From Acetobacter conturbans (GTDB lineage: Bacteria; Pseudomonadota; Alphaproteobacteria; Acetobacterales; Acetobacteraceae): a stretch of DNA of 64,000 nucleotides. The stretch covers positions 1 to 64,000 of the forward strand of contig NZ_WOSY01000005.1 in the NCBI RefSeq assembly GCF_011516755.1, written 5' to 3'. The position numbers and the translations under genes were made by a program. This document shows positions 18,572 to 32,328 of the stretch, one piece after another; within the stretch, counting starts at the first letter, position 1, and every line of letters begins with the position of its first letter. A model generated the notes under the pieces. It searched no databases. It was not told the DNA's origin and was given only the letters and a program-made list of their open reading frames with translations.

Positions 18572-20071
18572 ATGTCCGAACCGCTTTCTCTCCGGCAGAC
18601 GACGGTGACCACTCACCCCTGGGCCGACGACCAGCAGGAGGGGGATGACAAGTTCCACGAGGAATGCGCGGTCTTCGGCACCTGGAATGTCGCCGACGCC
18701 TCGCCCATCACGGCACTGGGACTGCATGCCCTCCAGCATCGCGGACAGGAAGCGTCGGGCATTGTCAGCTACGACGGACAGAAATTTTCCTCTCATCGCG
18801 GCTTGGGTCTTGTCGGCGATGTTTTCCACGACACCCGCATCATGGCCGGGCTGCCAGGCGACTGCTCGGTGGGGCACAACCGATACTCCACCACTGGCGA
18901 CACACTTCTGCGGAACGTGCAGCCTCTCTTCGCCGAATTTGAATTTGGTGGTCTCGCGGTCGCCCATAACGGCAACCTGACGAACGCGCATGGCCTGCGC
19001 CGGGCGCTCATCCGGCGCGGTTGCCTGTTTCAGTCCACCACGGACACTGAGGTCTTTGTCCATCTGATCGCCATCTCGCTCTACGCGACGGTGGAAGATC
19101 GCCTGATCGACGCGCTGAAGCAGGTTCAGGGCGCTTATTCCCTCGTCGTCCTGTCGCGTGAGGCCCTGATGGGCGTGCGCGACCCGATGGGCGTGCGTCC
19201 GCTGGTGCTGGGTAAGCTGCCCGGCGCGGCCAACGATGCAAGCGGCTGGGTGCTGGCGTCGGAAAGCTGCGGCCTCGATATCGTCGGCGCGGAATTCGTG
19301 CGCGACGTCGAGCCGGGCGAACTGGTCATCATCGATAAGGACGGCGTGCGCTCCGTCAAGCCGTTCGCGCCCGAGCGGTCCGGCTTCTGCGTGTTCGAAT
19401 ACATCTATTTCGCTCGTCCGGACTCGGTGCTTGACGGCATGCCCGTCTACAATGTCCGCAAGCAGATCGGTGTGGAACTGGCACGCGAGAGCGCGATAGA
19501 GGCGGACGTCGTGGTGCCGGTGCCGGATTCAGGTGTCCCGTCGGCCATGGGCTATGCGCAGGAAAGTGGCATTCCCTTCGAACTGGGCATCATCCGCAAT
19601 CACTATGTGGGGCGCACCTTCATCGAGCCGACGGACCAGATCCGTAACCTCGGCGTGCGCATGAAACATTCCGCCAACAAACCCACGATCAACGGCAAGC
19701 GCGTCATTCTCGTGGATGATTCGATCGTGCGCGGAACCACGTCCCGCAAGATCGTGGATATGGTTCGGGCCGCGGGTGCGACGGAAGTCCACATGCGGAT
19801 TTCCTCGCCGCCGACCAAACATTCCTGCTTTTACGGCATCGACACCCCCGAGCGCAGCAAGCTCCTCGCCGCCCAGCACGATGTGGCGACGATGGCGGAA
19901 CTGATTGGCGTCGACAGTCTCGCCTTCATCTCGTTCGATGGCCTGTATCGGGCCCTCGGCCACGAGAAGCGTGATGCGGAGCGTGGCCGGTATTGCGACG
20001 CCTGTTTTACCGGTGAATATCCCATTCCCCTCGTGGATCACGATGCGGAATTCGGCGTCGGCACAGCCTGA
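18572..20071 (+). CDS. purF: Amidophosphoribosyltransferase
   Basis: PurF makes 5-phosphoribosylamine from PRPP and glutamine, the first step of purine synthesis. The N-terminal glutaminase domain begins with nucleophile Cys32 in EECAVFG, after a 31-residue leader that is probably removed to free the cysteine. Also seen are HRGQEASGI, GHNRYSTTG and AHNGNL. The PRTase domain has VVPVPDSG and the PRPP loop VILVDDSIVRGTTS. C-terminal cysteines (YGIDTP region and YCDACF) suggest an Fe-S cluster type enzyme. Confidence 0.96.
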   Translation: MSEPLSLRQTTVTTHPWADDQQEGDDKFHEECAVFGTWNVADASPITALGLHALQHRGQEASGIVSYDGQKFSSHRGLGLVGDVFHDTRIMAGLPGDCSVGHNRYSTTGDTLLRNVQPLFAEFEFGGLAVAHNGNLTNAHGLRRALIRRGCLFQSTTDTEVFVHLIAISLYATVEDRLIDALKQVQGAYSLVVLSREALMGVRDPMGVRPLVLGKLPGAANDASGWVLASESCGLDIVGAEFVRDVEPGELVIIDKDGVRSVKPFAPERSGFCVFEYIYFARPDSVLDGMPVYNVRKQIGVELARESAIEADVVVPVPDSGVPSAMGYAQESGIPFELGIIRNHYVGRTFIEPTDQIRNLGVRMKHSANKPTINGKRVILVDDSIVRGTTSRKIVDMVRAAGATEVHMRISSPPTKHSCFYGIDTPERSKLLAAQHDVATMAELIGVDSLAFISFDGLYRALGHEKRDAERGRYCDACFTGEYPIPLVDHDAEFGVGTA

Positions 20072-20128
20072 ACCGCGAGATTCTGCGGCGGGATAGCAAC
20101 CCTGCCATAGCGCGCGCGTAGAAGCATC

Positions 20129-21175
20129 ATGCTGACACGACGGCTTGGCCTTGATCTGCCGATCTTCCAGGCGCCGATGGCGGGTGTCGCCACGCCCGAG
20201 CTGGCTGCAGCTGTGTCGGAAGCCGGAGGTCTCGGCAATCTGGGACTGGGTGCGATGAGCGTCGGGGAGGCGCGAAGCGCCATCCGGGCCACCCGTGCCC
20301 TGACCGGACGGCCATTCGGCGTCAACCTGTTCTGCCACAAGCCTGAGACACCCGATCTGGCCACCCTCACCAATTGGCTGGAGTGGCTGCGCCCGGAGTT
20401 CAGCCAGTTCGGCGTTGCCCCACCAGCGTCCCTGCGGCCTGTCTATCCCTCATTTCTCGACAATACGGGCATGCTGGAGATGCTGCTGGAAGAGCGGCCC
20501 GCGATGGTCAGCTTCCATTTCGGACTGCCTTCAACCGAGGTGATCCGGACGATGCGGCGTGCGGGAATACAGCTTGTCGTCAGCGTGACCAGCCCGGAAG
20601 AGGCCGTGCAGGCTTCTGCCGCCGGCGTCGATGCCCTCATTGTGCAGGGCTACGAAGCAGGCGGTCATCGTGGCCTGTTCGATCCCGACGGAAAAGACCG
20701 CAAGCTCGGCACGCGTCCCTTGCTGGCGGCGGTGCAGGCCGTTTCCTCCCTGCCACTCATCGCGGCTGGCGGGGTGATGACCGGATCGGATGTCGCCGCC
20801 ATGCTGGAAGCCGGAGCAATCGCGGCTCAGCTCGGCACCGCCTTCGTGACGTGCGAGGAAAGCGCGGCAAGTCCCGCATGGCGCGCCGCACTGGCGGACG
20901 ACGCGCGGCCCGAAACGGTGATGGTGAGGGCGATTTCCGGTCGTCCTGCGCGCGGGCTCAGAGGCCGCTTCGCCGAACTGGAAGAGCAGCCCGACTGCCC
21001 CCGTATTCCGCCCTATCCGTATGCCTATGACGCTGCACGACAGCTTGCGACCCTTGCGTCTGCTGTCGGCAATACGGACTATGCGGCCTTCTGGGCAGGC
21101 GCCAACGTGGCGGGTGTGCGCCCCATGCCCGCAGCCCGGCTTGTCACTGTGCTGGGGCAGGAAGCCGGTCTGTAA
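20129..21175 (+). CDS. Nitronate monooxygenase (NPD family)
   Basis: The 348-residue FMN-dependent TIM-barrel protein has PIFQAPMAGVATPELAAAV at the N-terminus, GLGNLGLGAMS, IVQGYEAGGHRG with the catalytic-type His, and IAAGGVMTGSDVAAML plus AAQLGTAF in the FMN phosphate region. It is a 2-nitropropane dioxygenase/nitronate monooxygenase homologue and should oxidise nitronates such as propionate-3-nitronate. Some relatives act on other substrates. It starts 57 bases after purF. Confidence 0.88.
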   Translation: MLTRRLGLDLPIFQAPMAGVATPELAAAVSEAGGLGNLGLGAMSVGEARSAIRATRALTGRPFGVNLFCHKPETPDLATLTNWLEWLRPEFSQFGVAPPASLRPVYPSFLDNTGMLEMLLEERPAMVSFHFGLPSTEVIRTMRRAGIQLVVSVTSPEEAVQASAAGVDALIVQGYEAGGHRGLFDPDGKDRKLGTRPLLAAVQAVSSLPLIAAGGVMTGSDVAAMLEAGAIAAQLGTAFVTCEESAASPAWRAALADDARPETVMVRAISGRPARGLRGRFAELEEQPDCPRIPPYPYAYDAARQLATLASAVGNTDYAAFWAGANVAGVRPMPAARLVTVLGQEAGL

Positions 21176-21315
21176 TCAGCGGAGACGGCCCGTCGCAGAG
21201 AGAGCCGCGGCCGCCGTGGGGTGGACGGCGTTATCAGAATGTTGAATATCCGTTATCTTGATAGCCCGGACGCAAGAAGAAATCTGAAGTAGGCCGGGGG
21301 CAGCAAAGATGGATC

Positions 21316-22476
21316 ATGGCGGCTGACACAACAGACAACGAAACGTTCCTGACCCTGCCGATCGGGAAGACCTCTGACTTCGCGCTGGAGGATTTCGCCG
21401 ACAACCATCAGGCCATGAACTATTTCCACAAGCATGGCGCCGGAACCGTCGAGCACGCCTTCGCGCTGGCCAATATCCTGCACATGCACAAGCTGGTGAA
21501 GGAAGCCGCCTATTTCTATGGGCTTGCCTTCAACCTGCATTCCAAGCATCCCCGCGAATTTCCGCTTGCCTCCTCGCTGCTTCAGGCGCGCCTGCTCTGC
21601 CTGCTCAAGGCGGGAATGAGCCCGCCGGAGGACGAGCTGGAGCAGCTGCGCAGGCTGTCCCAGCCGATTTACGACTATATTCTTGGGATCGAGATTGCCT
21701 GGCGCCAGCATGACCCCCAGGCCGCTCTGGAGCGCATGGGAAACTGTTTCGAGGCCTTCCACACAGGGGAGGAGGTTGATGTGCTCTACCTTGAGACGGC
21801 GCTTTCAGTGCTGCCCAAGGCAAAAGCGATCTCCCGCCCGGCTGAAGAGCAGATCATTCCACCGTCCATCTGCATGTACTGGGATGGTAATCCGCCGGAA
21901 GAGGTGACGGAGAACTACGCCTATCACCGCGAGCTGGAAGCGTTCGACGTCCAGATGTTCAACCGTGAGTCAGCGGCGGAGTGGCTTTATGACCGCTACG
22001 GCCGTGAAGCGCAGGATGTCTTTCTGCAGGCCCGCCATCCGGCCGAGGCCGCGGATTTTCTCCGTGTGCATGTGATTCAGGAGCAGGGCGGCTGGTGGCT
22101 GGACGCCGATATCCGCATTGTCGCGCCGGAAGTGCTGGAAGCCTACGCCGCCAAAAGGCCGTCTCATCTGTTCTTCGTGACGGACAATTATTACGTCCAT
22201 AACGATTTCTTCGGCAGTCGTCGCAACAGCCCCATCCTGGCCGACTGCATGCTGTCCCTCTACCGGAACAGCTACCTCTTCAAGGACCTCTACATCGCCT
22301 ACAAGACCGGGCCGGGCGTGTTCAATCGCGCGCTCAACCGCCGCCTGCATACGTCGTTCAAGACAGGCAAGCCGTTCGATCCCGGCGTGGTCGTCCTGCG
22401 GGCTCCCGAGTTCGACAGCATCATTCAGGACATGGACATGGCCTACAAAAAGGGTGGCAACTGGCACGCGGCCTGA
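21316..22476 (+). CDS. DXD-type sugar transferase (Gly_transf_sug family) with helical N-terminal region
   Basis: The 386-residue protein has about 185 residues of helical, TPR-like sequence (ALANILHMHKLVKEAAYFYG). A glycosyltransferase domain starting at PPSICMYWDGNPPEEV follows. The diagnostic motif AEAADFLRVHVIQEQGGWW with LDAD marks the OCH1/TcdA-like DXD superfamily, where the Asp pair binds the metal-nucleotide sugar. The substrate is unknown. There is no signal peptide. A hairpin follows the stop. Confidence 0.85.
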   Translation: MAADTTDNETFLTLPIGKTSDFALEDFADNHQAMNYFHKHGAGTVEHAFALANILHMHKLVKEAAYFYGLAFNLHSKHPREFPLASSLLQARLLCLLKAGMSPPEDELEQLRRLSQPIYDYILGIEIAWRQHDPQAALERMGNCFEAFHTGEEVDVLYLETALSVLPKAKAISRPAEEQIIPPSICMYWDGNPPEEVTENYAYHRELEAFDVQMFNRESAAEWLYDRYGREAQDVFLQARHPAEAADFLRVHVIQEQGGWWLDADIRIVAPEVLEAYAAKRPSHLFFVTDNYYVHNDFFGSRRNSPILADCMLSLYRNSYLFKDLYIAYKTGPGVFNRALNRRLHTSFKTGKPFDPGVVVLRAPEFDSIIQDMDMAYKKGGNWHAA

Positions 22477-22484
22477 GTGTTTTA

Positions 22485-22505
22485 CTTCAGGGCACATCCC
22501 TGAAG
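22485..22505 (+). terminator. Hairpin after the DXD sugar transferase gene
   Basis: CTTCAGGG and CCCTGAAG pair perfectly across CACAT, starting nine bases after the stop codon. No T-run follows, so efficiency is uncertain. Confidence 0.5.
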
Positions 22506-22704
22506 ACGGCCAGAACCGGGTCTTTGGAAACCGTTATGGGGCACAGGCACCACCGGACCATGTGGGGGAATGGGGCTGAGCCTCATGAATCTCCATCCAT
22601 CGACTGACGCGTCCTGTTTTTCAGGCTATAGAGCAGCCATATCGAAAGGGACGCGCAGTCTTTGCGTGTGCCTCACTCTGTTTTCAGATCGGAAAGAATA
22701 TCTC

Positions 22705-24567
22705 ATGGCCGGTTACCGTTCCCGCACCACAACCCACGGCCGCAACATGGCCGGCGCACGCAGCCTCTGGCGCGCCACGGGCATGACGGACGCGGATTTC
22801 GGTAAGCCGATTATCGCCGTGGCCAACTCCTTCACGCAGTTCGTCCCCGGCCATGTCCACCTGAAAGACCTCGGTCAGCTCGTCTGCGAGGCTATCGCGG
22901 AAGCGGGCGGCGTCGGGCGCGAGTTCAACACCATCGCGGTCGATGACGGCATCGCCATGGGTCACGGCGGCATGCTCTACAGCCTCCCCTCGCGCGAACT
23001 GATCGCCGACGCCGTGGAATACATGGTCAACGCCCACTGCGCCGACGCGCTGGTCTGCATCAGCAACTGCGACAAGATCACGCCCGGCATGCTGATGGCC
23101 GCCATGCGCCTGAACATCCCTGTCGTGTTCGTCTCCGGTGGTCCGATGGAAGCCGGTCACGTCAAGGACGGCGAGATCGACAAGGCCATTGATCTGGTCT
23201 CCTCCATGGTTGCCGCCGCAGCACCCGGCGTCACGCAGGAAGAGTCCGACATCATCGAACGGTCAGCCTGCCCGACCTGCGGCTCCTGCTCCGGCATGTT
23301 CACCGCCAACTCGATGAACTGCCTGACCGAAGCGCTCGGCCTGTCGCTTCCGGGCAACGGCAGCCTCCTCGCCACGCATGCCGACCGTCGCGAACTGTTC
23401 ATGAATGCTGGCAGGCTCGTCGTCGATCTGGCCAAACGCTATTACGAGCAGGGCGACAGCAGCGTCCTGCCGCGTTCCATCGCCACGTTCGAGGCGTTCG
23501 AGAATGCCATGACCGTCGATATCGCCATGGGTGGCTCGACCAACACGGTGCTCCATCTCCTCGCCGCCGCGCATGAGGGTGAGGTGCCGTTCACCATGGC
23601 CGATATCGACCGTCTCTCCCGCCGTGTGTCGAATCTCTGCAAGGTCGCGCCGTCCAAGGCCGACGTGCACATGGAAAACGTCCATCGTGCCGGTGGCGTG
23701 CAGGCCATCATGGGCGAACTCGACCGCATGAACCTGCTGCATCACGACCTCCCCATGGTTCACGCCAAAAGCGTGGCCGAGGCGCTGGCGCAGTGGGATA
23801 TCGGTGGCAAGACCGCGACCGACGAGGCCCGCACCTTCTACAAGGCTGCACCCGGCGGTGTCCGCACCACGCAGGCTTTCTCGCAGGCCAGCCGCTACAA
23901 GGAACTGGATCTCGACCGCGAAAAGGGCGCGATCCGTTCCGGCGACCATGCATTCAGCAAAGAAGGTGGTCTCGCCGTTCTCTATGGCAACATCGCCGAG
24001 GACGGGGCCATTGTGAAGACCGCCGGTGTGGCGGAGGGTCTGCTGACCTTCTCCGGTCCCGCCCGTGTCTTCGAAAGTCAGGATGCTGCCGTGTCCGCCA
24101 TTCTCGGTGACCGCATCAAGGCCGGTGACGTGGTGGTGATCCGTTACGAAGGGCCGAAGGGTGGTCCGGGTATGCAGGAAATGCTCTATCCGACGTCCTA
24201 TCTGAAGTCGAAGGGCCTTGCGGAATCCTGTGCGCTGATCACGGACGGTCGGTTCTCCGGCGGCAGTTCGGGCCTGTCCATAGGCCACATTTCGCCGGAA
24301 GCGGCCGAGGGCGGCGAGATTGGTCTGATCGAAGATGGCGACACCATCGAAATCAACATCCCGAGCCGCGTGCTCCGGGTTGCGCTGCCAGAATCCGAGC
24401 TGTCAGCTCGTCGCCAGAAGATGGATGATCGGGGTGTCGAGGCATGGAAACCGGTGCGTGACCGCGTGGTCTCCACGGCGCTCAAGGCTTACGCGGCGCT
24501 GACGACCAGTGCTGCGCGTGGCGCGGTGCGTGATCTGGCGCAGCTGGATCGACGCTCTTCGCGGTGA
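22705..24567 (+). CDS. ilvD: Dihydroxy-acid dehydratase
   Basis: IlvD dehydrates 2,3-dihydroxy-isovalerate and its homologue in valine, isoleucine and leucine synthesis. The 620-residue length matches the family. Visible are [12 protein letters not shown] and [19 protein letters not shown], with cysteines expected to ligate the Fe-S cluster, plus [13 protein letters not shown], and the C-terminal [20 protein letters not shown] take the ATG at 22705, with GGAAAGA upstream and MAGYRSRTT at the family's N-terminus, instead of a longer frame from 22570. It is the last conserved gene before the accessory island. Confidence 0.96.
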
Positions 24568-24578
24568 GATGAGGGATA

Positions 24579-24610
24579 GCAGGGCTCTGCCCTGCACCCG
24601 CCAAAGGCGG
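24579..24610 (+). repeat. Double GC hairpin downstream of ilvD (dispersed element, probable terminator)
   Basis: GCAGGGC-TCT-GCCCTGC (24579-24595) is followed by CCGCC-AAA-GGCGG (24598-24610). The first hairpin and the following bases align with the element at 27054-27070 read on the minus strand. It sits 11 bases after ilvD and marks the left edge of the island. Confidence 0.6.
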
Positions 24611-24974
24611 TGCCTTTGGGAACCGGGTAAATGGTAGGGCGGGCTTGGGCAGGGAAAGCGAAGGTGCTGTGTTCAGAGGTATATTTCGCGAAGCTAGACA
24701 TAAATCGTCCGCAATTCCAGAAAACCAACGGCACTATCTGGGCGGCGTGCCGCATATAGCCACGTTTTCGGATCTGTACCGAGGTACACGGTAGGCTGCG
24801 CGAACTCGCGGACAAACGACGCCGGTTCGGCTAGGCATCCCGATGCCTGCATATTCGAGAAATGCACCTAGTCTAAGTTGTCAGGCTACACTAAACGTCG
24901 CCACTGCCTCAGCGCGGCAACACGATAAGGCGGAACGAATTATTCGATCGCAGTGCAATAGAGCGGGAGGGGGA
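24611..24974. other. Island spacer upstream of the Panacea gene
   Basis: About 360 bases with no supported gene. The base composition and codon patterns look less biased than in the surrounding genes. It contains the palindrome TGTACC-GA-GGTACA at 24775-24788, a possible operator for the downstream pair. No integrase, tRNA or attachment repeat was found. Confidence 0.4.
24775..24788. promoter_or_regulatory. 14-bp palindrome upstream of the Panacea-domain gene
   Basis: TGTACC and GGTACA are perfect inverted arms around GA, about 190 bases before the proposed start codon. It is a plausible repressor site for the gene pair, but could be chance. Confidence 0.3.
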
Positions 24975-25592
24975 ATGATGAATGCGCCATATGACCCTCG
25001 TGCGGTAGCAAATAAACTATTGGACATCGCTGATGTTCTCGCGGGCGAAGCTATGCCGATAACGCCCCTCGCGTTGCAGAAGCTGCTCTTCTTTGTCCAT
25101 GCGCGATACCTTAAGGAAAGCGGCGGCATCCCAGCTGTCAGAGGAGCGTTCGAGGCTTGGCAGTATGGCCCCGTTCACCCCGCTGTATACAAAGCATTCA
25201 GTGGCTACGGGCGTGATCCTATCACAAGCCGCGTCGAAGGAAAGAATGTCGTCACGGGCCAGCCTCTTCCACTTGAAATGCCCAATGACCCAATGCTGCA
25301 GAAGATCATTGGTCAAGTACTTATAAGCTTCGGTAATTTACCAGCATCTGCTCTGGTCCGCTTGTCTCACCAAGTTGGTGGAGCATGGGATACAATATGG
25401 AAAAAAATCCAGCTCGGAGACGCGATTACTAGGCAAATACCAGATAGCGTGACTCTGTCATGCGGACGTTCTATGTTTGTTGTCACGGCCAACGACGAAA
25501 GCAGCGAATCCACGCATGTCGAAGATGAAGATCTCCCTCCCGAATATCGAAATAGCAACTTTGGGCGCACTAGGACGTGGGGAGAAACGTGA
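24975..25592 (+). CDS. Panacea-domain (DUF4065/SocA-like) protein, candidate antitoxin
   Basis: The 205-residue protein carries a Panacea domain over about residues 8-150. Signatures are PLALQKLLFFVHARYL, FEAWQYGPVHPAVYKAF, and the late LSHQVGGAWDTIW. Known Panacea proteins include SocA, a proteolytic adaptor antitoxin, and antitoxins that neutralise many unrelated toxins encoded next to them. The gene has a strong ribosome site (GGGAGGGGG) before a double ATG. The next gene starts inside its 3' end in another frame. Codon use is less GC-biased than in the flanking genes, which suggests transfer. An antitoxin role is inferred from family and layout, not shown. Confidence 0.82.
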   Translation: MMNAPYDPRAVANKLLDIADVLAGEAMPITPLALQKLLFFVHARYLKESGGIPAVRGAFEAWQYGPVHPAVYKAFSGYGRDPITSRVEGKNVVTGQPLPLEMPNDPMLQKIIGQVLISFGNLPASALVRLSHQVGGAWDTIWKKIQLGDAITRQIPDSVTLSCGRSMFVVTANDESSESTHVEDEDLPPEYRNSNFGRTRTWGET

Positions 25593-26256
25593 CAAGGCAA
25601 TACGAGCATTCCGGGCAGGGCGGCCTCCATTTACATATGAAGCGCTTCGTAAGTCGTTAAGTGATGTTTTGCATATCGTTGCGCCATTAGGCTTCAACAT
25701 GCCGCCAGTGCCTTGGGCCACAATCGAGAAAACTGTCCTTGATAGATGCACAAAAAGAAAAAACGAAAAATCTTACAATGTAGCCAAAGCAAAGGCATTA
25801 TACGAATTCCGCAAGCGCACCGACATACGGTTCCTGCCCCATCAAATTTCGTCTTCGTTGATACTCCCCAATGACAATCGCATAGTGTTTTGGAGCGATA
25901 TGATCGCTATTGTCGATGGACGTCCTCTGCTACCGTTTTTCGACTTGCGTTCCTCCACTGGGCTTCAATCTGATAGATCCAGACAGATCGCGATGAGTAT
26001 TCAGCATAGAGTGGCGATTGAGCAAGATGCCGATCTTGATCAGAGTGGCACGAGGCCAGCTATCATCCAGATTGCCGGGTCCATGAAAGATGGTTTCACT
26101 CCGCACCTGATCGAGACTTGCCTCCAGCCTCTTCTATCGATGAGCAATATCCAAGAAATAGTGCTCGAAGTGTGGGATGATATAGTTCGTGTTAGCAGTG
26201 AAGATCAGGGATACGACAAGCGAACTGGTACGGGTGGTTTATTCGACCTTATCTAG
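25516..26256 (+). CDS. Unrecognised protein overlapping the Panacea gene, candidate toxin partner
   Basis: I do not recognise this 246-residue protein. It begins MSKMKISLPNIEIA, with a basic helical N-terminal half rich in Lys/Arg (CTKRKNEKSYNVAKAKALYEFRKR). A beta-rich segment follows, IVFWSDMIAIVDGRPLLPFFDLR, near residues 120-150, and then an acidic C-terminal part. No signal peptide or membrane helix is visible. It overlaps the Panacea gene by 77 bases in another frame, which implies coupled translation. Toxins paired with Panacea antitoxins are very diverse, so novelty is expected. In-frame ATGs at 25516 and 25525 are both possible starts. Confidence 0.65.
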   Translation: MSKMKISLPNIEIATLGALGRGEKRDKAIRAFRAGRPPFTYEALRKSLSDVLHIVAPLGFNMPPVPWATIEKTVLDRCTKRKNEKSYNVAKAKALYEFRKRTDIRFLPHQISSSLILPNDNRIVFWSDMIAIVDGRPLLPFFDLRSSTGLQSDRSRQIAMSIQHRVAIEQDADLDQSGTRPAIIQIAGSMKDGFTPHLIETCLQPLLSMSNIQEIVLEVWDDIVRVSSEDQGYDKRTGTGGLFDLI

Positions 26257-26579
26257 CGCTGTCCCCCCTCGAATGCCAGTTAAGGTCCCTTTCCGCTGCT
26301 CTGATCACCCAGTCCGCACGCGTCGTATAGCCCTACTAGCTTACACGTCTTTGCGATGGAGTGTAGGCTTATCAGTCATTGCCTATGATTTCGAAAGTTG
26401 TAGCCTGGGAGGCTTGTGCCAGATGATTTGAAATTGTGTTCGGGGTGCGAAATGGCCAGCATGTCCGGCTAAATTACATCGAGCGCTCGCCACTTTTTAT
26501 ACATCGTGGAAGGCAGTAAGGAGACGTCTGCTTGTCGGTCATGGTTTTTGCGGGCTGTATGTCTAGCTTGACAGTGCTT
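26257..26579. other. Island spacer between the Panacea pair and the broken phosphatase gene
   Basis: About 320 bases of intermediate GC. I find no supported coding frame on either strand, no terminator with a clear T-run, and no insertion-sequence end. It may be decayed accessory DNA. Confidence 0.4.
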
Positions 26580-26909
26580 TCAGTCGATAGGGAGATAGTG
26601 ACCGAGCCTTGTTTGAAGCATCTTGGCTAGTCTTGGGTCCATGAAGTCGAACTCGTCAGGTATATCCAGACCAATCAATCGTTTGCCACTCAGTGACACA
26701 CGAAATCGCTTCTGTCCCTTGAAGCGATGCGCCTTCTCCATGACCACGATCACATCGACCCACACCCCCAGTTCGGATGTGAGGGGATTCTCGGTATCGT
26801 TATTCGTCCCCGAGGAAGCAACTTAAAGGCTTGGCCGAGAAGAGAAAATTTCCTCGGCGGTAGGGCTGCGAAGGCGGTTTTGACTGCACACGAACACGAC
26901 ATTTTTCAT
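26580..26909 (-). pseudogene. Low-molecular-weight protein tyrosine phosphatase family gene, interrupted by an in-frame stop
   Basis: Read from the ATG at 26909, the frame gives MKNVVFVCSQNRLRSPTAEE, the short LMW-PTP-like type with the P-loop CSQNRLRS. Codon 29 is TAA (26825-26823). The same frame then continues to 26580 with VASSGTNN, IVVMEKAHR, and LDIPDEFDFMDPRL, which are the rest of the family's roughly 110-residue domain. AAGGA lies seven bases before the start. A single base change from GAA or similar would restore the protein. The gene is therefore a nonsense pseudogene unless the base is a sequencing error or the stop is suppressed. Confidence 0.82.
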
Positions 26910-27053
26910 GCGGGAATCCTTGGCAGTAAGCTACACATTAATATTGCAGCGACTGCTATTGGGAACTAAGTATTCCAGCCCAAACAGTCAGTAATATATA
27001 AACAATACTACCATTATTCGGGATGAAGGGGACTGTGTTTCCTTCCGGGGAGA

Positions 27054-27070
27054 GCGGGGCAGCGCCCCGC
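27054..27070 (-). repeat. GC hairpin downstream of the two-domain glycosyltransferase gene (dispersed element, probable terminator)
   Basis: GCGGGGC and GCCCCGC form a perfect stem around AGC, 18 bases beyond the stop of the minus-strand gene. On the minus strand it aligns with the hairpin after ilvD. It marks the right edge of the island in opposite orientation. Confidence 0.6.
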
Positions 27071-27088
27071 AGAGCTTTTACCAAGGGG

Positions 27089-29503
27089 CTACTCAGCAGC
27101 CAAAGCTCCCAACAATACCTCTCCAAACCGCTCCGGCGAATACCCGTCCGCAACAAGAGCCTTTCCCGCATCCGACCGCACCCGCCACAGCGCATCATCT
27201 CCAAGTAACGCCACCAACGCCTCGGCAAACACATCCGCTGTATCAGCCACAGCAACCGCACTCTCCAGTCCCGCGATCCCCTCAGCCCCAACCGGCGTGG
27301 TGACGAGCGGCAGACCGTAGTGCAGCGCTTCCAGCACCTTGTTCTTGACGCCAGCACCGAAACGCAGCGGCACGGCGGCGACGCGGGCGGTGGCGTAGAG
27401 CCGTGCCAGTTCTTCGTCGGAGATAAAACCGGTGACGGTCACATCGGGACCAGCCAAAGCTCGGACTTCGGCGGCGGGTTTTGATCCGGCGAGAATCAGC
27501 CGCGCGTTCGGCACGCGCAGCCGAACTTTCGGCATGATCTCGCGCACCAGCCAGAGGGCGGCATCGACATTCGGGGGATGACCGAAGCCGCCGACGAACA
27601 GGATGGTCGCGCCCGGTGTGACGGGTCTCGCAGTGCGGTCCGGGGTGAAGCAGAACGGCACGATGGCGTGCGGTCGTGCGGTCGGGGCGAGTTCGCGGAC
27701 GAGATCGACTTCGTATTGCGATAAATAGAGTACCGAATGAAACTGCGGCCAGAGCCATGTTTCCAGTCGCCGCATGGTGAGCGCCTCCTGACGGATCTGC
27801 GTGTCACCCGTCACCTCCGCTTCGCGTTCCAGCCGCAGGAAGTGAATATCGTGGCCGTAATAGGAGCGTCGTGCGTCGGTGTTGAGTACCGCATCCGGCA
27901 GGAAAGCGCGGGCAATGGTCGGGCGCATGATCATGACATGGTCGAGATCAGAGCCGTTCTCCGCGACCCACTCCGCGAAACTGTGCGGGTCGGTCTCGTC
28001 GATGATCTCCACGCCCAGCCGTTCGAGGGGGTGGGAATAGGTGTTGCGCTGGCGGTTCTCAGGCCAGAATTTTACCAGCCATCCGGCATTACACAGAGCA
28101 TGGATCACGCACATCGTGGCGCGGGAGCCGGCGTCGCGGTCGGGTTCCGGCACGTAATGATCGATGATGAGGATCGTCTGTCGACCGTGCGCGTGTGACG
28201 CGGCGCGGAGGAAGTGCGTTGCGGGCGGGAAATGCTCTGCTTCCAGCGCGTCGCGCCAGCGTTCCAGCATCAGGGCCCGGTTGCGACCCTGATACGCCTT
28301 TACGCCGCTGGTCTCGTCCGTCCCGTGCGAAACGCCTTCATGGTGGATGACCACCGAACCGGGCTCGAACACCACACGCAGACCGGAAGCACGGACACGG
28401 AAAGCGAGGTCTGTGTCCTCGTAATAGGCCGGGGCGAAGGCTTCATCGAATCCGCCGAGGGACTCGAACAGGTCACGGCGCAGCATGATCGATGCGCCGG
28501 AGATGTAGTCCACGTCGCGCGAATAGCTGTAGACGGCCCGGTTCGGGTGCGGATCGTTGCGTCCGAAATTCCAGCCGGAGGCGTCGTTCCAGATAATGCC
28601 GCCTGCTTCCTGCAACCGTCCGTCCGGATAGAGCAGTTTCGAACCGGTCAGGCCGATGCCGCCATCCGTTTGCAGACGAGCCAGCAGGGCGTCGAACGTG
28701 CCGGGCAGCACTTCCGTATCGTTATTCAGCAGATGGAGATACGTCCCCGCGGCAGTCTTCGCGGCCTCGTTGCAGTTCTTCAGGAAGCCGAGATTTTCGG
28801 ATCGCTCGATCAGCACCAGCCCCATGACGGCACGCAGTTCGGCGATGTCCGGATCGCCTGAGGCGTCTTCCGCCACGATCACCTCGTAAGGGCAGGATGG
28901 TGGGTGGCGCAGGATCGAACGCAGGCAGCGTAGCGTGACCGGAACCTGTCCGTAACTCGGGATGACGATGCTCAGAACGGGATAGGCATGGCGCGGGAAA
29001 CTGATGGCTGCCAGCGTTTCCTTGCGATGACCGCGACGGCTTTGTCCCCGGCGTGAGGAAGGCTGAGGCAGCGTTTCCGCAGGGGAAGGGATCTCTTCCT
29101 GGTGGGGAATATCCGCCTTCAGTTCCGTCTGTTTCCGGCGATACATCCGCAGGCGGTCGGGGAACTGACCGGTCGCCAGCCACCAGCAGGATTTTGTGGA
29201 GACGCGGAGTGCGCGTGCCAGCCGTGGTGTGTGTTCCAGCGCCGTGCGGGCAGGCCATGTCAGCCGCCAGAACGTGCTGCTTTCATAGGCTTCCACATCC
29301 CGTCGGAGGGCGGCAATCGTGGTTTCGGATGTCTTGTCCTGCGCACGGAGCCGGTCGATCTCGTCTTGCAACTGGCGTAAATCGGGATGGGCGGGGGAGC
29401 GGTCAGGAGAACGGGACACGGTGGACTCTTGCCTCGACGACGGAAATTCAGGCTTCCACCCTGCGTCCCGTGAGGAGGGCGATGGGGAGGAGCGCTGTTG
29501 CAT
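27089..29503 (-). CDS. Two-domain glycosyltransferase (GT2-like plus GT4-like)
   Basis: The 804-residue protein has an N-terminal coiled-coil region (LQDEIDRLRAQDK, about residues 45-75). A GT2 domain follows from about residue 175, with VLSIVIPSYGQ, IVAEDASGD, HLLNNDTEV (the DxD-equivalent) and FYED-type YYEDTDLAFR. A second domain runs from about residue 440 to the end, with ILIIDHYVPEPDRD and the GT4 region VPLRFGAGVKNKVLEALHYG. Such fusions build O-antigen or exopolysaccharide chains. Sugar specificity cannot be read. It borders the island and is followed by a GC hairpin. Confidence 0.9.
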   Translation of the reverse strand: MQQRSSPSPSSRDAGWKPEFPSSRQESTVSRSPDRSPAHPDLRQLQDEIDRLRAQDKTSETTIAALRRDVEAYESSTFWRLTWPARTALEHTPRLARALRVSTKSCWWLATGQFPDRLRMYRRKQTELKADIPHQEEIPSPAETLPQPSSRRGQSRRGHRKETLAAISFPRHAYPVLSIVIPSYGQVPVTLRCLRSILRHPPSCPYEVIVAEDASGDPDIAELRAVMGLVLIERSENLGFLKNCNEAAKTAAGTYLHLLNNDTEVLPGTFDALLARLQTDGGIGLTGSKLLYPDGRLQEAGGIIWNDASGWNFGRNDPHPNRAVYSYSRDVDYISGASIMLRRDLFESLGGFDEAFAPAYYEDTDLAFRVRASGLRVVFEPGSVVIHHEGVSHGTDETSGVKAYQGRNRALMLERWRDALEAEHFPPATHFLRAASHAHGRQTILIIDHYVPEPDRDAGSRATMCVIHALCNAGWLVKFWPENRQRNTYSHPLERLGVEIIDETDPHSFAEWVAENGSDLDHVMIMRPTIARAFLPDAVLNTDARRSYYGHDIHFLRLEREAEVTGDTQIRQEALTMRRLETWLWPQFHSVLYLSQYEVDLVRELAPTARPHAIVPFCFTPDRTARPVTPGATILFVGGFGHPPNVDAALWLVREIMPKVRLRVPNARLILAGSKPAAEVRALAGPDVTVTGFISDEELARLYATARVAAVPLRFGAGVKNKVLEALHYGLPLVTTPVGAEGIAGLESAVAVADTADVFAEALVALLGDDALWRVRSDAGKALVADGYSPERFGEVLLGALAAE

Positions 29504-29542
29504 CAGCCATACAGGCGGACGCGGTCGAGGGGAATGGAAGGC

Positions 29543-29962
29543 TCAGCTCAGAGCGGCGACTTCCGGCATCCGTGCAGTCAGTTCCAGTTCGATTTCCACT
29601 TCGGGACGATCGAACTGTTCCACGACGAGCACGGTGGTCGCGGGTCTGTTGTCGCCGAGCATGTCACTGACGAATGAGCCGCATGTCGAGAGGTGGCCGA
29701 CATTCTTGACGAGATAGGTCACGCGCACGACGTCACGCAGCGATGCGCCTTTCGTGGAGAGCATCGCATCTCCGGCACAGAAGGCGAGGCGACACTGATC
29801 GGCGATGCGGGCGGGGAAACGTCCGGAGCGGCGATCATAGCCCCTGAGATGTTTCAGGCGCAGGTTCTGGCGTGACTGTTCACAGGTAGGCTGGTCCATC
29901 TCGAATCGGGGCAGGGGCTCGGTAAGATCGTTTTCACGTCTTGTTGCCAATGCTGCTTCCAT
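29543..29962 (-). CDS. RidA/YjgF family protein
   Basis: The protein (139 residues) matches the RidA family in its second half: GASLRDVVRVTYLV, then DNRPATTVLVVEQF with the conserved Arg of the ligand pocket, and VEIELELTA at the end. True RidA deaminates reactive 2-aminoacrylate-type imines. This member has a longer N-terminus and belongs to a less characterised subgroup, so the reaction is uncertain. The start at 29962 has AAAGGGCG upstream. A longer start at 29998 is possible. It is divergent from the PTS operon. Confidence 0.8.
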   Translation of the reverse strand: MEAALATRRENDLTEPLPRFEMDQPTCEQSRQNLRLKHLRGYDRRSGRFPARIADQCRLAFCAGDAMLSTKGASLRDVVRVTYLVKNVGHLSTCGSFVSDMLGDNRPATTVLVVEQFDRPEVEIELELTARMPEVAALS

Positions 29963-30097
29963 TCGGATCGCCCTTTCACGGTGACACAAAATTGTCATAA
30001 TCTGAAAGGGCTTGCAAAGAAAGATGTTTCTTCAGGGAAACGCTGTCAGAGCGTAATGATTTCAGTAATTGCATGTTGGTGGAGAAGCCTGCGGGAG

Positions 30098-30571
30098 ATG
30101 ACTGTGAGCGAGGAAAGATCCGTCAGGCGCTTCCATGCCAGTTGCGCGGCGCGGCGCGGGAAGGGAGTGCTGCTGTTCGGACCGTCCGGCACGGGCAAGT
30201 CCGATCTCCTCCTCCGGCTCATGGCGCGCGGATATGCTCTGGTGGCCGATGACAGGGTGGAAATGACAGCCGGGATGGCGCGTGCGCCCATGCGTTTGCG
30301 TGGCCTGATCGAAGTCCGGGGATGGGGGATTGTGCGCTGCCCTTTCGTGGCGGAAGCCCCCGCCGTTCTCGCGGTGAGACTTCTCCGTGAAAGTGAGGTC
30401 GCGCCCCGCCTGCCTGCAGAAGGCGGCACTCACCCGGAAACCGGGCTCCCGGTGCTATATCTGGATGGCATGATGGCGTCCGCGCCCGAGCGGATCGATA
30501 TCGCCCTGGACTGCCTGGAAGAGCGAGCCTTTCTTGTGCCGCAGAGCGCCATGTTGGCCAGCGATGACTGA
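30098..30571 (+). CDS. hprK: HPr kinase/phosphorylase, short alphaproteobacterial type
   Basis: The 157-residue protein corresponds to the C-terminal catalytic domain of HprK only, as in many alphaproteobacteria. It has the P-loop LLFGPSGTGKSDLLL, VADDRVEM (catalytic Asp region), the LRGLIEVRGWGI signature and the ending VPQSAM. It should phosphorylate Ser53 of the HPr encoded downstream and reverse that reaction. The N-terminus is uncertain: ATG at 30098 fits the family, and ATG at 30056 would add 14 residues. It opens the hprK-rapZ-EIIA-ptsH-ptsI cluster. Confidence 0.92.
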   Translation: MTVSEERSVRRFHASCAARRGKGVLLFGPSGTGKSDLLLRLMARGYALVADDRVEMTAGMARAPMRLRGLIEVRGWGIVRCPFVAEAPAVLAVRLLRESEVAPRLPAEGGTHPETGLPVLYLDGMMASAPERIDIALDCLEERAFLVPQSAMLASDD

Positions 30572-30742
30572 AGACGACAAAAATGTGTCAGAGGGACGCC
30601 AGAGTCTGATATGGTCTGACGCATAATGTGTTGATGGGTGTCCCATTCAGGGATCCCGCTCGGCCAGACAGGGCCGCCGAAAACTGTCGGATGGCCCGGT
30701 CGGGTGTTTTTCTCTTCTTCATCAGGGTGCTTGTCGGGTTCA

Positions 30743-31810
30743 ATGGTGACGCCTCAGACTGCCGAAGATGTTCCGCCACGCCAGATCCTGCTCGTCACGG
30801 GTCTGTCGGGCGCAGGAAAGTCGTCGATTCTGCGGATTCTCGAAGATCTCGGGCATGAGGTGATCGATAATCCTCCGCTCGGGATGCTCGACGAGATCGT
30901 GGCGCGCGGGGACCGACCCATTGCCGTGGGCGTGGATTCCCGCACGCGGGGATTCGATGCTTCCGCCGTGCTGGAGGCGTTGGCGCGGTTGCGGATGAAT
31001 CCTCATCTGCGTGCCGAACTGCTCTATGCCACCGCCGACAAGACGACGCTTTTGCAGCGCTATACCGCCACTCGCCGAAGGCACCCGCTGGCCCCGCACG
31101 GCAGCGTCAAGGAAGGTATCGACGCCGAAAACCAGCTCACGGCCCGGTTGCGGGCGAATGCCGATCTGGTGATCGATACGTCAGACCTCTCGGCCCCCGA
31201 ACTACGGCGGCTGGTCGAGACGCGCTTCGGGACATGGCAGAGTGGCCCTGACGAAGGGCTGACGGTCGTGCTGATGTCCTTCGCCTTTCCGGCAGGACTG
31301 CCCCGCGAAGCGGATATGGTGTTTGACGCACGGTTCCTGAGAAATCCGCATTATGAATCCGAACTGGCCCCGCAGACCGGCCTTGATCGCCCCGTCGCGG
31401 CCTATGTCGAGGCCGATCCCGACTATGAGCCTTTTCTGGAGCAGATTCTCGGCATGCTCAGGCTGGTCATTCCCCGCTTCGTGCAGGAAGGAAAGAAATA
31501 CGCGACGATTGCAGTCGGGTGTTCCGGCGGCCGTCATCGCTCGGTGACCCTGGTCGAGGCTCTCGGTCACAAACTGGCCGACCCGGCGGAAGGGATTGGC
31601 GGCGAAGGACCGATTGCGGTCGTGCATCGGGAACTGGCACGTCAGGGCATCGCCGGACCGGGGGCCGCCGCTTGGCGCTGGGCAAGAAAACCCGTCGACA
31701 AGCCGGACGAACGGGATACGGGCCTTGAGGAAAAACTGATGAAAGCGGCAGGAGCCGGACTGGCAGAAGATGACGCATCGTCACGGTCCATGGCGCGGGA
31801 AAATTCATGA
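30743..31810 (+). CDS. rapZ: RNase adapter protein RapZ family
   Basis: The 355-residue protein has Walker A GLSGAGKSSILRILEDLG, the LDSR-like GVDSRTRGFD, a TRRRHPL segment, and the C-terminal VGCSGGRHRSVTLVE, all RapZ/YvcJ hallmarks. In enterobacteria RapZ controls GlmS through small-RNA decay. In alphaproteobacteria it sits with PTS genes and its target is less clear. The length exceeds the usual 285 residues because of a C-terminal tail of about 50 residues. The start at 30743 is chosen because homology begins shortly after it. The stop overlaps the next gene by ATGA. Confidence 0.93.
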   Translation: MVTPQTAEDVPPRQILLVTGLSGAGKSSILRILEDLGHEVIDNPPLGMLDEIVARGDRPIAVGVDSRTRGFDASAVLEALARLRMNPHLRAELLYATADKTTLLQRYTATRRRHPLAPHGSVKEGIDAENQLTARLRANADLVIDTSDLSAPELRRLVETRFGTWQSGPDEGLTVVLMSFAFPAGLPREADMVFDARFLRNPHYESELAPQTGLDRPVAAYVEADPDYEPFLEQILGMLRLVIPRFVQEGKKYATIAVGCSGGRHRSVTLVEALGHKLADPAEGIGGEGPIAVVHRELARQGIAGPGAAAWRWARKPVDKPDERDTGLEEKLMKAAGAGLAEDDASSRSMARENS

Positions 31811-32328
31811 TTGGTATTGTGTTGGTGACGCAGGGTGCACTGGGCGTCGCGCTGCGTGAAACGCTCGAGCATGTTGTTGGCATGCAGGAACGGCTGGCGA
31901 CGGTGAGTGTCGGGGCCGATGACGACCTTGTTGCGCGGCGCGAGGAACTGGAATCGTGTGTTGCGGCAGTCGATGACGGCGATGGCGTGATGCTGGTGAC
32001 CGACATGTTCGGCAGCACGCCCTCCAATCTGGCGGTGGCGATGATGGAACCCTGCCGGATCGAGGTGCTTGGGGGCGCCAATCTTCCCATGCTGGTGAAG
32101 CTGGTGCAGATGCGCGATCTGCATACGCTCGAAGAGTGCGCGAGCGCTGCGGAAATGGCGGCGCACAAATATATCAGCCGCGCCTCCCATCTTCCTGCAC
32201 AATGTCTGGACGGTGCCCGTCGGTGTTCCGAAAAAGCGGGCGCCGATAAAATTCACCCGTTTCAGCTTCGTCCTGAGCCGCTTCAGGCCCCGAGCACCTC
32301 GCTCCTCCGTAAAGTCGCGGCAGGATGA
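31807..32328 (+). CDS. PTS EIIA mannose-type domain protein lacking the phospho-accepting histidine
   Basis: The first 130 residues match EIIA-Man: GIVLVTQGALG, TLEHVVG, VMLVTDMFGSTPSN and GANLPMLVKLVQM. The active-site motif is normally T-H-G, with the histidine that takes the phosphate from HPr. Here codon 9 is CAG, giving T-Q-G. The Asp in VTDMFG is kept. The protein also has a 45-residue C-terminal extension with no family similarity. It probably cannot be phosphorylated in the usual way and may act as a fixed-state regulator or be decaying. It is coupled to rapZ and to ptsH by 4-base overlaps. Confidence 0.85.
   Translation: MIGIVLVTQGALGVALRETLEHVVGMQERLATVSVGADDDLVARREELESCVAAVDDGDGVMLVTDMFGSTPSNLAVAMMEPCRIEVLGGANLPMLVKLVQMRDLHTLEECASAAEMAAHKYISRASHLPAQCLDGARRCSEKAGADKIHPFQLRPEPLQAPSTSLLRKVAAG

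Follow-up and report, generated by a model that had tools for sequence, protein, structure and literature searches.

A copy of the type VI toxin-antitoxin pair SocAB in Acetobacter conturbans, with a predicted nuclease fold and a putative clamp-binding tail in its toxin SocB

A 64,000-nucleotide stretch of the Acetobacter conturbans genome (assembly GCF_011516755.1, contig NZ_WOSY01000005.1, positions 1 to 64,000; hereafter the window) carries two overlapping forward-strand genes whose family assignments identify them as a copy of SocAB, a type VI toxin-antitoxin pair that is already named, and it is highly likely that the toxin of this pair is directed at the sliding clamp. The first gene, socA (24975..25592), encodes a Panacea-domain antitoxin that scores 214.5 bits against the NCBIfam model NF047745 (SocA_antitoxin, cut-off 190) and 50.7 bits against Pfam PF13274 (SocA_Panacea, cut-off 25.7); it bears a GPV motif that is invariant across a 7-sequence alignment, in which its C-terminus is longer than that of most relatives. 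The second gene, socB (25516..26256), encodes a predicted clamp-directed toxin of 246 residues that scores 223.5 bits against NF047746 (SocB_toxin, cut-off 210) over the full profile, 1-228 of 228. NF047745 and NF047746 are both 'equivalog' models of SocAB. An initial annotation of the locus had found no family for the second protein; because the NF047746 cut-off is passed, this 'unrecognised' partner is now placed in the SocB family.

Searches of the whole host genome returned a single match apiece for SocB, SocA and Panacea. The nearest species-named SocB relative is an Acetobacter aceti protein at 64% identity, and because this homologue stands beside a full-length match to a curated family, the socB frame is real and not a chance reading frame. 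Two further relatives (P0074, P0080) carry the NCBI name 'type VI toxin-antitoxin system SocB family DNA replication inhibitor toxin', and PF26318 is annotated on database rows of SocB relatives. PADLOC and a copy of Pfam without PF26318 gave SocB no significant match, with best E values of 0.054 and 0.13, and a sequence search of the PDB gave none for SocA and chance-level matches only for SocB (best E 0.2).

The 77-base overlap of the two genes, in different frames (25516..25592, forward strand), was described correctly at the outset, both frames being open. The socA frame begins at ATG 24975 or ATG 24978, with GGGAGGGGG immediately 5' of the start, and is open throughout to its stop at 25592; that of socB runs from ATG 25516 to a stop at 26256, with an alternative in-frame ATG at 25525 that gives an overlap of 68 bases, and no clear ribosome-binding site was seen for either socB start. 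Genes overlap in 55 of the 71 SocAB loci measured, mostly by 8-29 bases and at most by 64, so the 68-77 bases of the window are the long end of a family habit and not special in kind. The AT-richer setting is likewise borne out by a fall in G+C content: four consecutive 500-base steps, spanning 25000 to 26999, lie at 0.48-0.52, compared with 0.576 in the step preceding 25000 and 0.59-0.67 elsewhere within 20000-31999.

The locus adds a further member to a family that is rarely found. SocB matches occur in 6 of 385 genomes of the class (5 of 384 with the host genome set aside) and in 3 of 200 genomes of the family, host included; those in L006 and L007 are weak and partial, and the NF047746 cut-off is passed by just two of the six matching class genomes, the host being one of them. 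The three same-genus genomes listed for the family sample all lack SocB. The antitoxin gene lies directly upstream of the toxin gene in the window, as in SocAB, and a survey for partner homologues standing without a Panacea gene, which the initial annotation had named as a finding that would speak against the pairing, had the opposite outcome. Judged by eye, a Panacea-type open reading frame sits directly upstream in 6/6 SocB loci outside the window in the class and family samples, and also upstream in 3/3 SocB loci from 249 genomes in the same family as a Caulobacteraceae metagenome-assembled genome. Starting from the antitoxin, 80 named loci of the closest SocA relatives were taken, 79 of them with a testable frame behind SocA, and a SocB homologue lies downstream in 75 of the 79 (62 using a smaller profile). 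The pairing is looser among more distant Panacea proteins, which often have other neighbours: in the genus of genome G801, which the naming of P0006 as Caulobacter sp. RL271 suggests is Caulobacter, a Panacea match occurs in 13 of 75 genomes and just 4 of these 13 loci carry SocB. One 419-residue protein (P0051), encoded on a 1,623-base contig, joins a Panacea domain to a SocB domain in a single polypeptide; it could be a natural fusion or an artefact of a frameshift, and it was left unused. Carriage on phages or plasmids was considered and rejected, as tblastn of the window SocB against phage and plasmid collections gave no match at E 0.01.

Caulobacter SocB blocks the clamp, and SocA is the adaptor through which ClpXP degrades SocB (PMC7566177, PMC5422525). 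We propose a corresponding mechanism for the window pair, in which SocB would be a small RecB/Cas4-type PD-(D/E)XK fold domain, probably catalytically dead, with a flexible C-terminal clamp-binding tail; in free SocB this tail would block replication by filling the hydrophobic cleft of DnaN, the sliding clamp, while SocA, the product of the overlapping upstream gene, would bind SocB and hand it to ClpXP. By the same analogy the window SocB is predicted to be toxic, binding DnaN and stopping replication, and ClpXP, rather than plain binding, may do the neutralising; the host genome has genes for both ClpX (659 bits) and DnaN (267 bits). The likeness to Caulobacter crescentus SocAB, as set by the curated family models and not by comparison of the Caulobacter sequences themselves, consists in the passing of both models, the upstream position of the antitoxin gene and a clamp-motif-like sequence in the toxin; the window pair differs in its host, in its 68-77-base overlap and in a tail without Q. 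A Caulobacter vibrioides control genome gave no match to NF047746, NF047745 or PF13274, and since it has no Panacea at all its silence on SocB is uninformative. Another toxin of a toxin-antitoxin system, RipA of Streptococcus pneumoniae, resembles SocB in being aimed at the hydrophobic pocket of the clamp and differs from it in that the two are reported to share no homology of sequence or structure (PMC12795458).

The neutralising step is where the most serious alternative lies. The pair could work as a type II system, in which SocA neutralises SocB by direct binding with no proteolysis and the clamp is still blocked; we hold this to be possible, at a probability well short of even, and since it departs from delivery to ClpXP in that step only, the chances of the two readings overlap. 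It takes its support from the PanAT pairs, which the window pair resembles as a Panacea antitoxin with a GPV motif and an adjoining toxin, and in whose survey SocB is cluster T10 (PMC8832971); the pairs differ in that toxin neutralisation by the Panacea antitoxins examined in that survey persisted in Escherichia coli deprived of ClpXP and Lon, with direct binding the mechanism that its authors prefer. Weighing on the other side, both window proteins pass models specific to SocA and SocB, beyond Panacea alone, and the Caulobacter pair that bears these names is the one degraded through ClpXP (PMC7566177, PMC5422525).

In bacteria, proteins that bind the clamp have a C-terminal QL(S/D)LF motif, which may vary considerably, and SocB binds the clamp cleft through the usual clamp-binding motif (PMC9690074); the position of that motif within the protein is not stated in the SocB passage of the same paper. 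The window SocB ends in TGTGGLFDLI, which is near the motif but lacks the Q, and from this resemblance we infer that its C-terminal tail, GGLFDLI (codons 26233..26253, forward strand), is the clamp ligand. SocB endings are varied, mostly with a hydrophobic pair or FxF (GPLFD, GPLI, NPFGF, GDLFG), and divergent members include endings with Q (QGDLFD, QFDLFA, QDDLFA, QGTMFP); Q-type motifs occur in 9 of 77 SocBs. Two loci of the presumed Caulobacter genus have DPDQPDFFDD and EDQPDLPFSP near the end, the latter, from the divergent SocB of L125, lying close to the textbook clamp-binding motif. With patterns that were picked after the tails had been seen, [LMF][FIL] is found in the last seven residues of 33 of 41 representatives sharing less than 60% identity, against a mean of 3.4 (max 11, n=2000) in shuffles of the last 20 residues and 7.0 (max 16) in random internal stretches, and a wider pattern is found in the last eight residues of 52 of 66 representatives drawn from a larger set, against a mean of 7.3 (max 17, n=1000) in shuffles. 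The tail falls in the low-confidence end of both structure models.

Those two AlphaFold models have their best matches, at modest scores, among RecB/AddB/Cas4-type PD-(D/E)XK nucleases, and we predict that SocB shares this fold. At E 1, Pfam gave no nuclease-family match for any of the 50 members of set A5, so it is structure prediction by itself that supplies the fold. Strand order and spacing set D143-L-R145 at the (D/E)-x-K position and D128 at the first aspartate, and the codons from D128 to R145 (25897..25950, forward strand) are proposed as the remnant of a D...(D/E)xK site in which K has become R; the placement draws on model secondary structure and on the spacing in MGME1, not on a residue-level structural alignment. 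The window SocB departs from the D...(D/E)-x-K active site in having R at the presumed lysine. Of 66 representatives, 53 have an acidic residue at position 143 and only 21 have D at position 128. At position 145, 58 have R, one has K and seven have W, these seven all lacking an acid at 143 or 128. The single representative with K (L056 3489-4199, Hyphomonas oceanitis) is the only one that keeps a canonical D...D-x-K. These column counts are most simply explained by an enzyme that has lost its activity, and SocB is probably catalytically dead by this model-based placement. SocB might instead be an active nuclease that its clamp tail carries to the replication fork, where harm would come from cleavage and not from competition for the clamp; the predicted fold, the retained D128...D143-x-R145 of the window and the intact Hyphomonas site lean that way, but the prevalence of R at the lysine position, the frequent loss of D128, the members with W145 and no acid, and the reading FSFWRS at the presumed site of two Q-motif members (L076, L080) make it improbable.

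That the window copy of SocAB is decayed and inactive is a shade less probable again: a phosphatase-like gene fragment in the same segment and the lack of SocB in the three same-genus genomes would suit decay, but both frames are full length and the GPV motif and the tail are intact. Of the first proposal, a toxin-antitoxin pair of a new type, the Panacea antitoxin beside its toxin stands, on family membership and co-occurrence, while the new type, whose appeal was that many different toxins pair with Panacea proteins (PMC8832971), is refuted at the family level by two proteins above the curated SocA and SocB cut-offs and keeps a barely perceptible chance.

The SocAB pair itself is known; the newer hints are of a worn-out nuclease scaffold and a conserved C-terminal clamp hook. 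RecB/AddB/Cas4/Dna2-type PD-(D/E)XK nucleases and SocB would be alike in fold and differ in the presumed lysine, mostly R in SocB, in the first aspartate, mostly lost, and in the short clamp-like tail. At about an even chance, SocB toxins are former replication or repair nucleases of the RecB/Cas4 kind turned clamp blockers, their site decayed and their C-terminal clamp hook kept, while DNA cleavage at the fork may persist in some branches. The tail reading and the nuclease fold of SocB were not found in the literature searched, and no paper there had SocB alongside 'Cas4'; the founding SocB paper was outside that literature and prior publication is possible. The picture of SocB as a nuclease fold ending in a short clamp-binding tail is testable: it shows where to split the protein, separating clamp binding from the remainder, and it suggests an origin for clamp-blocking toxins. 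With its many variants, a natural family of clamp-blocking tails would in addition offer ready-made ligands for studies of the bacterial clamp cleft.

The pair lies in an accessory segment (24570..27124) between a gene that we take from its sequence to be ilvD and a glycosyltransferase gene identified by domain matches. In each of six same-genus stretches, nucleotide similarity to the window breaks off where ilvD ends, at 24554-24569, and in two of them it resumes within the glycosyltransferase gene, at 27125 or 27270. A third (L110) aligns on the glycosyltransferase side no earlier than 28127, with that side inverted relative to ilvD, and in the remaining three that side has no match within the stretch fetched. 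In L111 and L112, what is presumably a catalase-like gene occupies the place between ilvD and glycosyltransferase that socAB has in the window. These alignments mark the interval as a variable site and the socAB locus as a small accessory insert. No tRNA gene was found within the 64-kb window and no direct repeats of at least 14 bases in 24400-27200, and scans for promoters and terminators over 24560-27100 returned fewer sites than in shuffles. Downstream of socB, a 61-residue open reading frame on the reverse strand (26583-26765) matches a portion of proteins from plasmid records that resemble protein-tyrosine phosphatases. Its best match (55% identity) is in a Novosphingobium record with no gene annotated there, and among the five matches shown two are annotated as low-molecular-weight phosphatases and one as a protein-tyrosine-phosphatase; the frame looks like a gene remnant.
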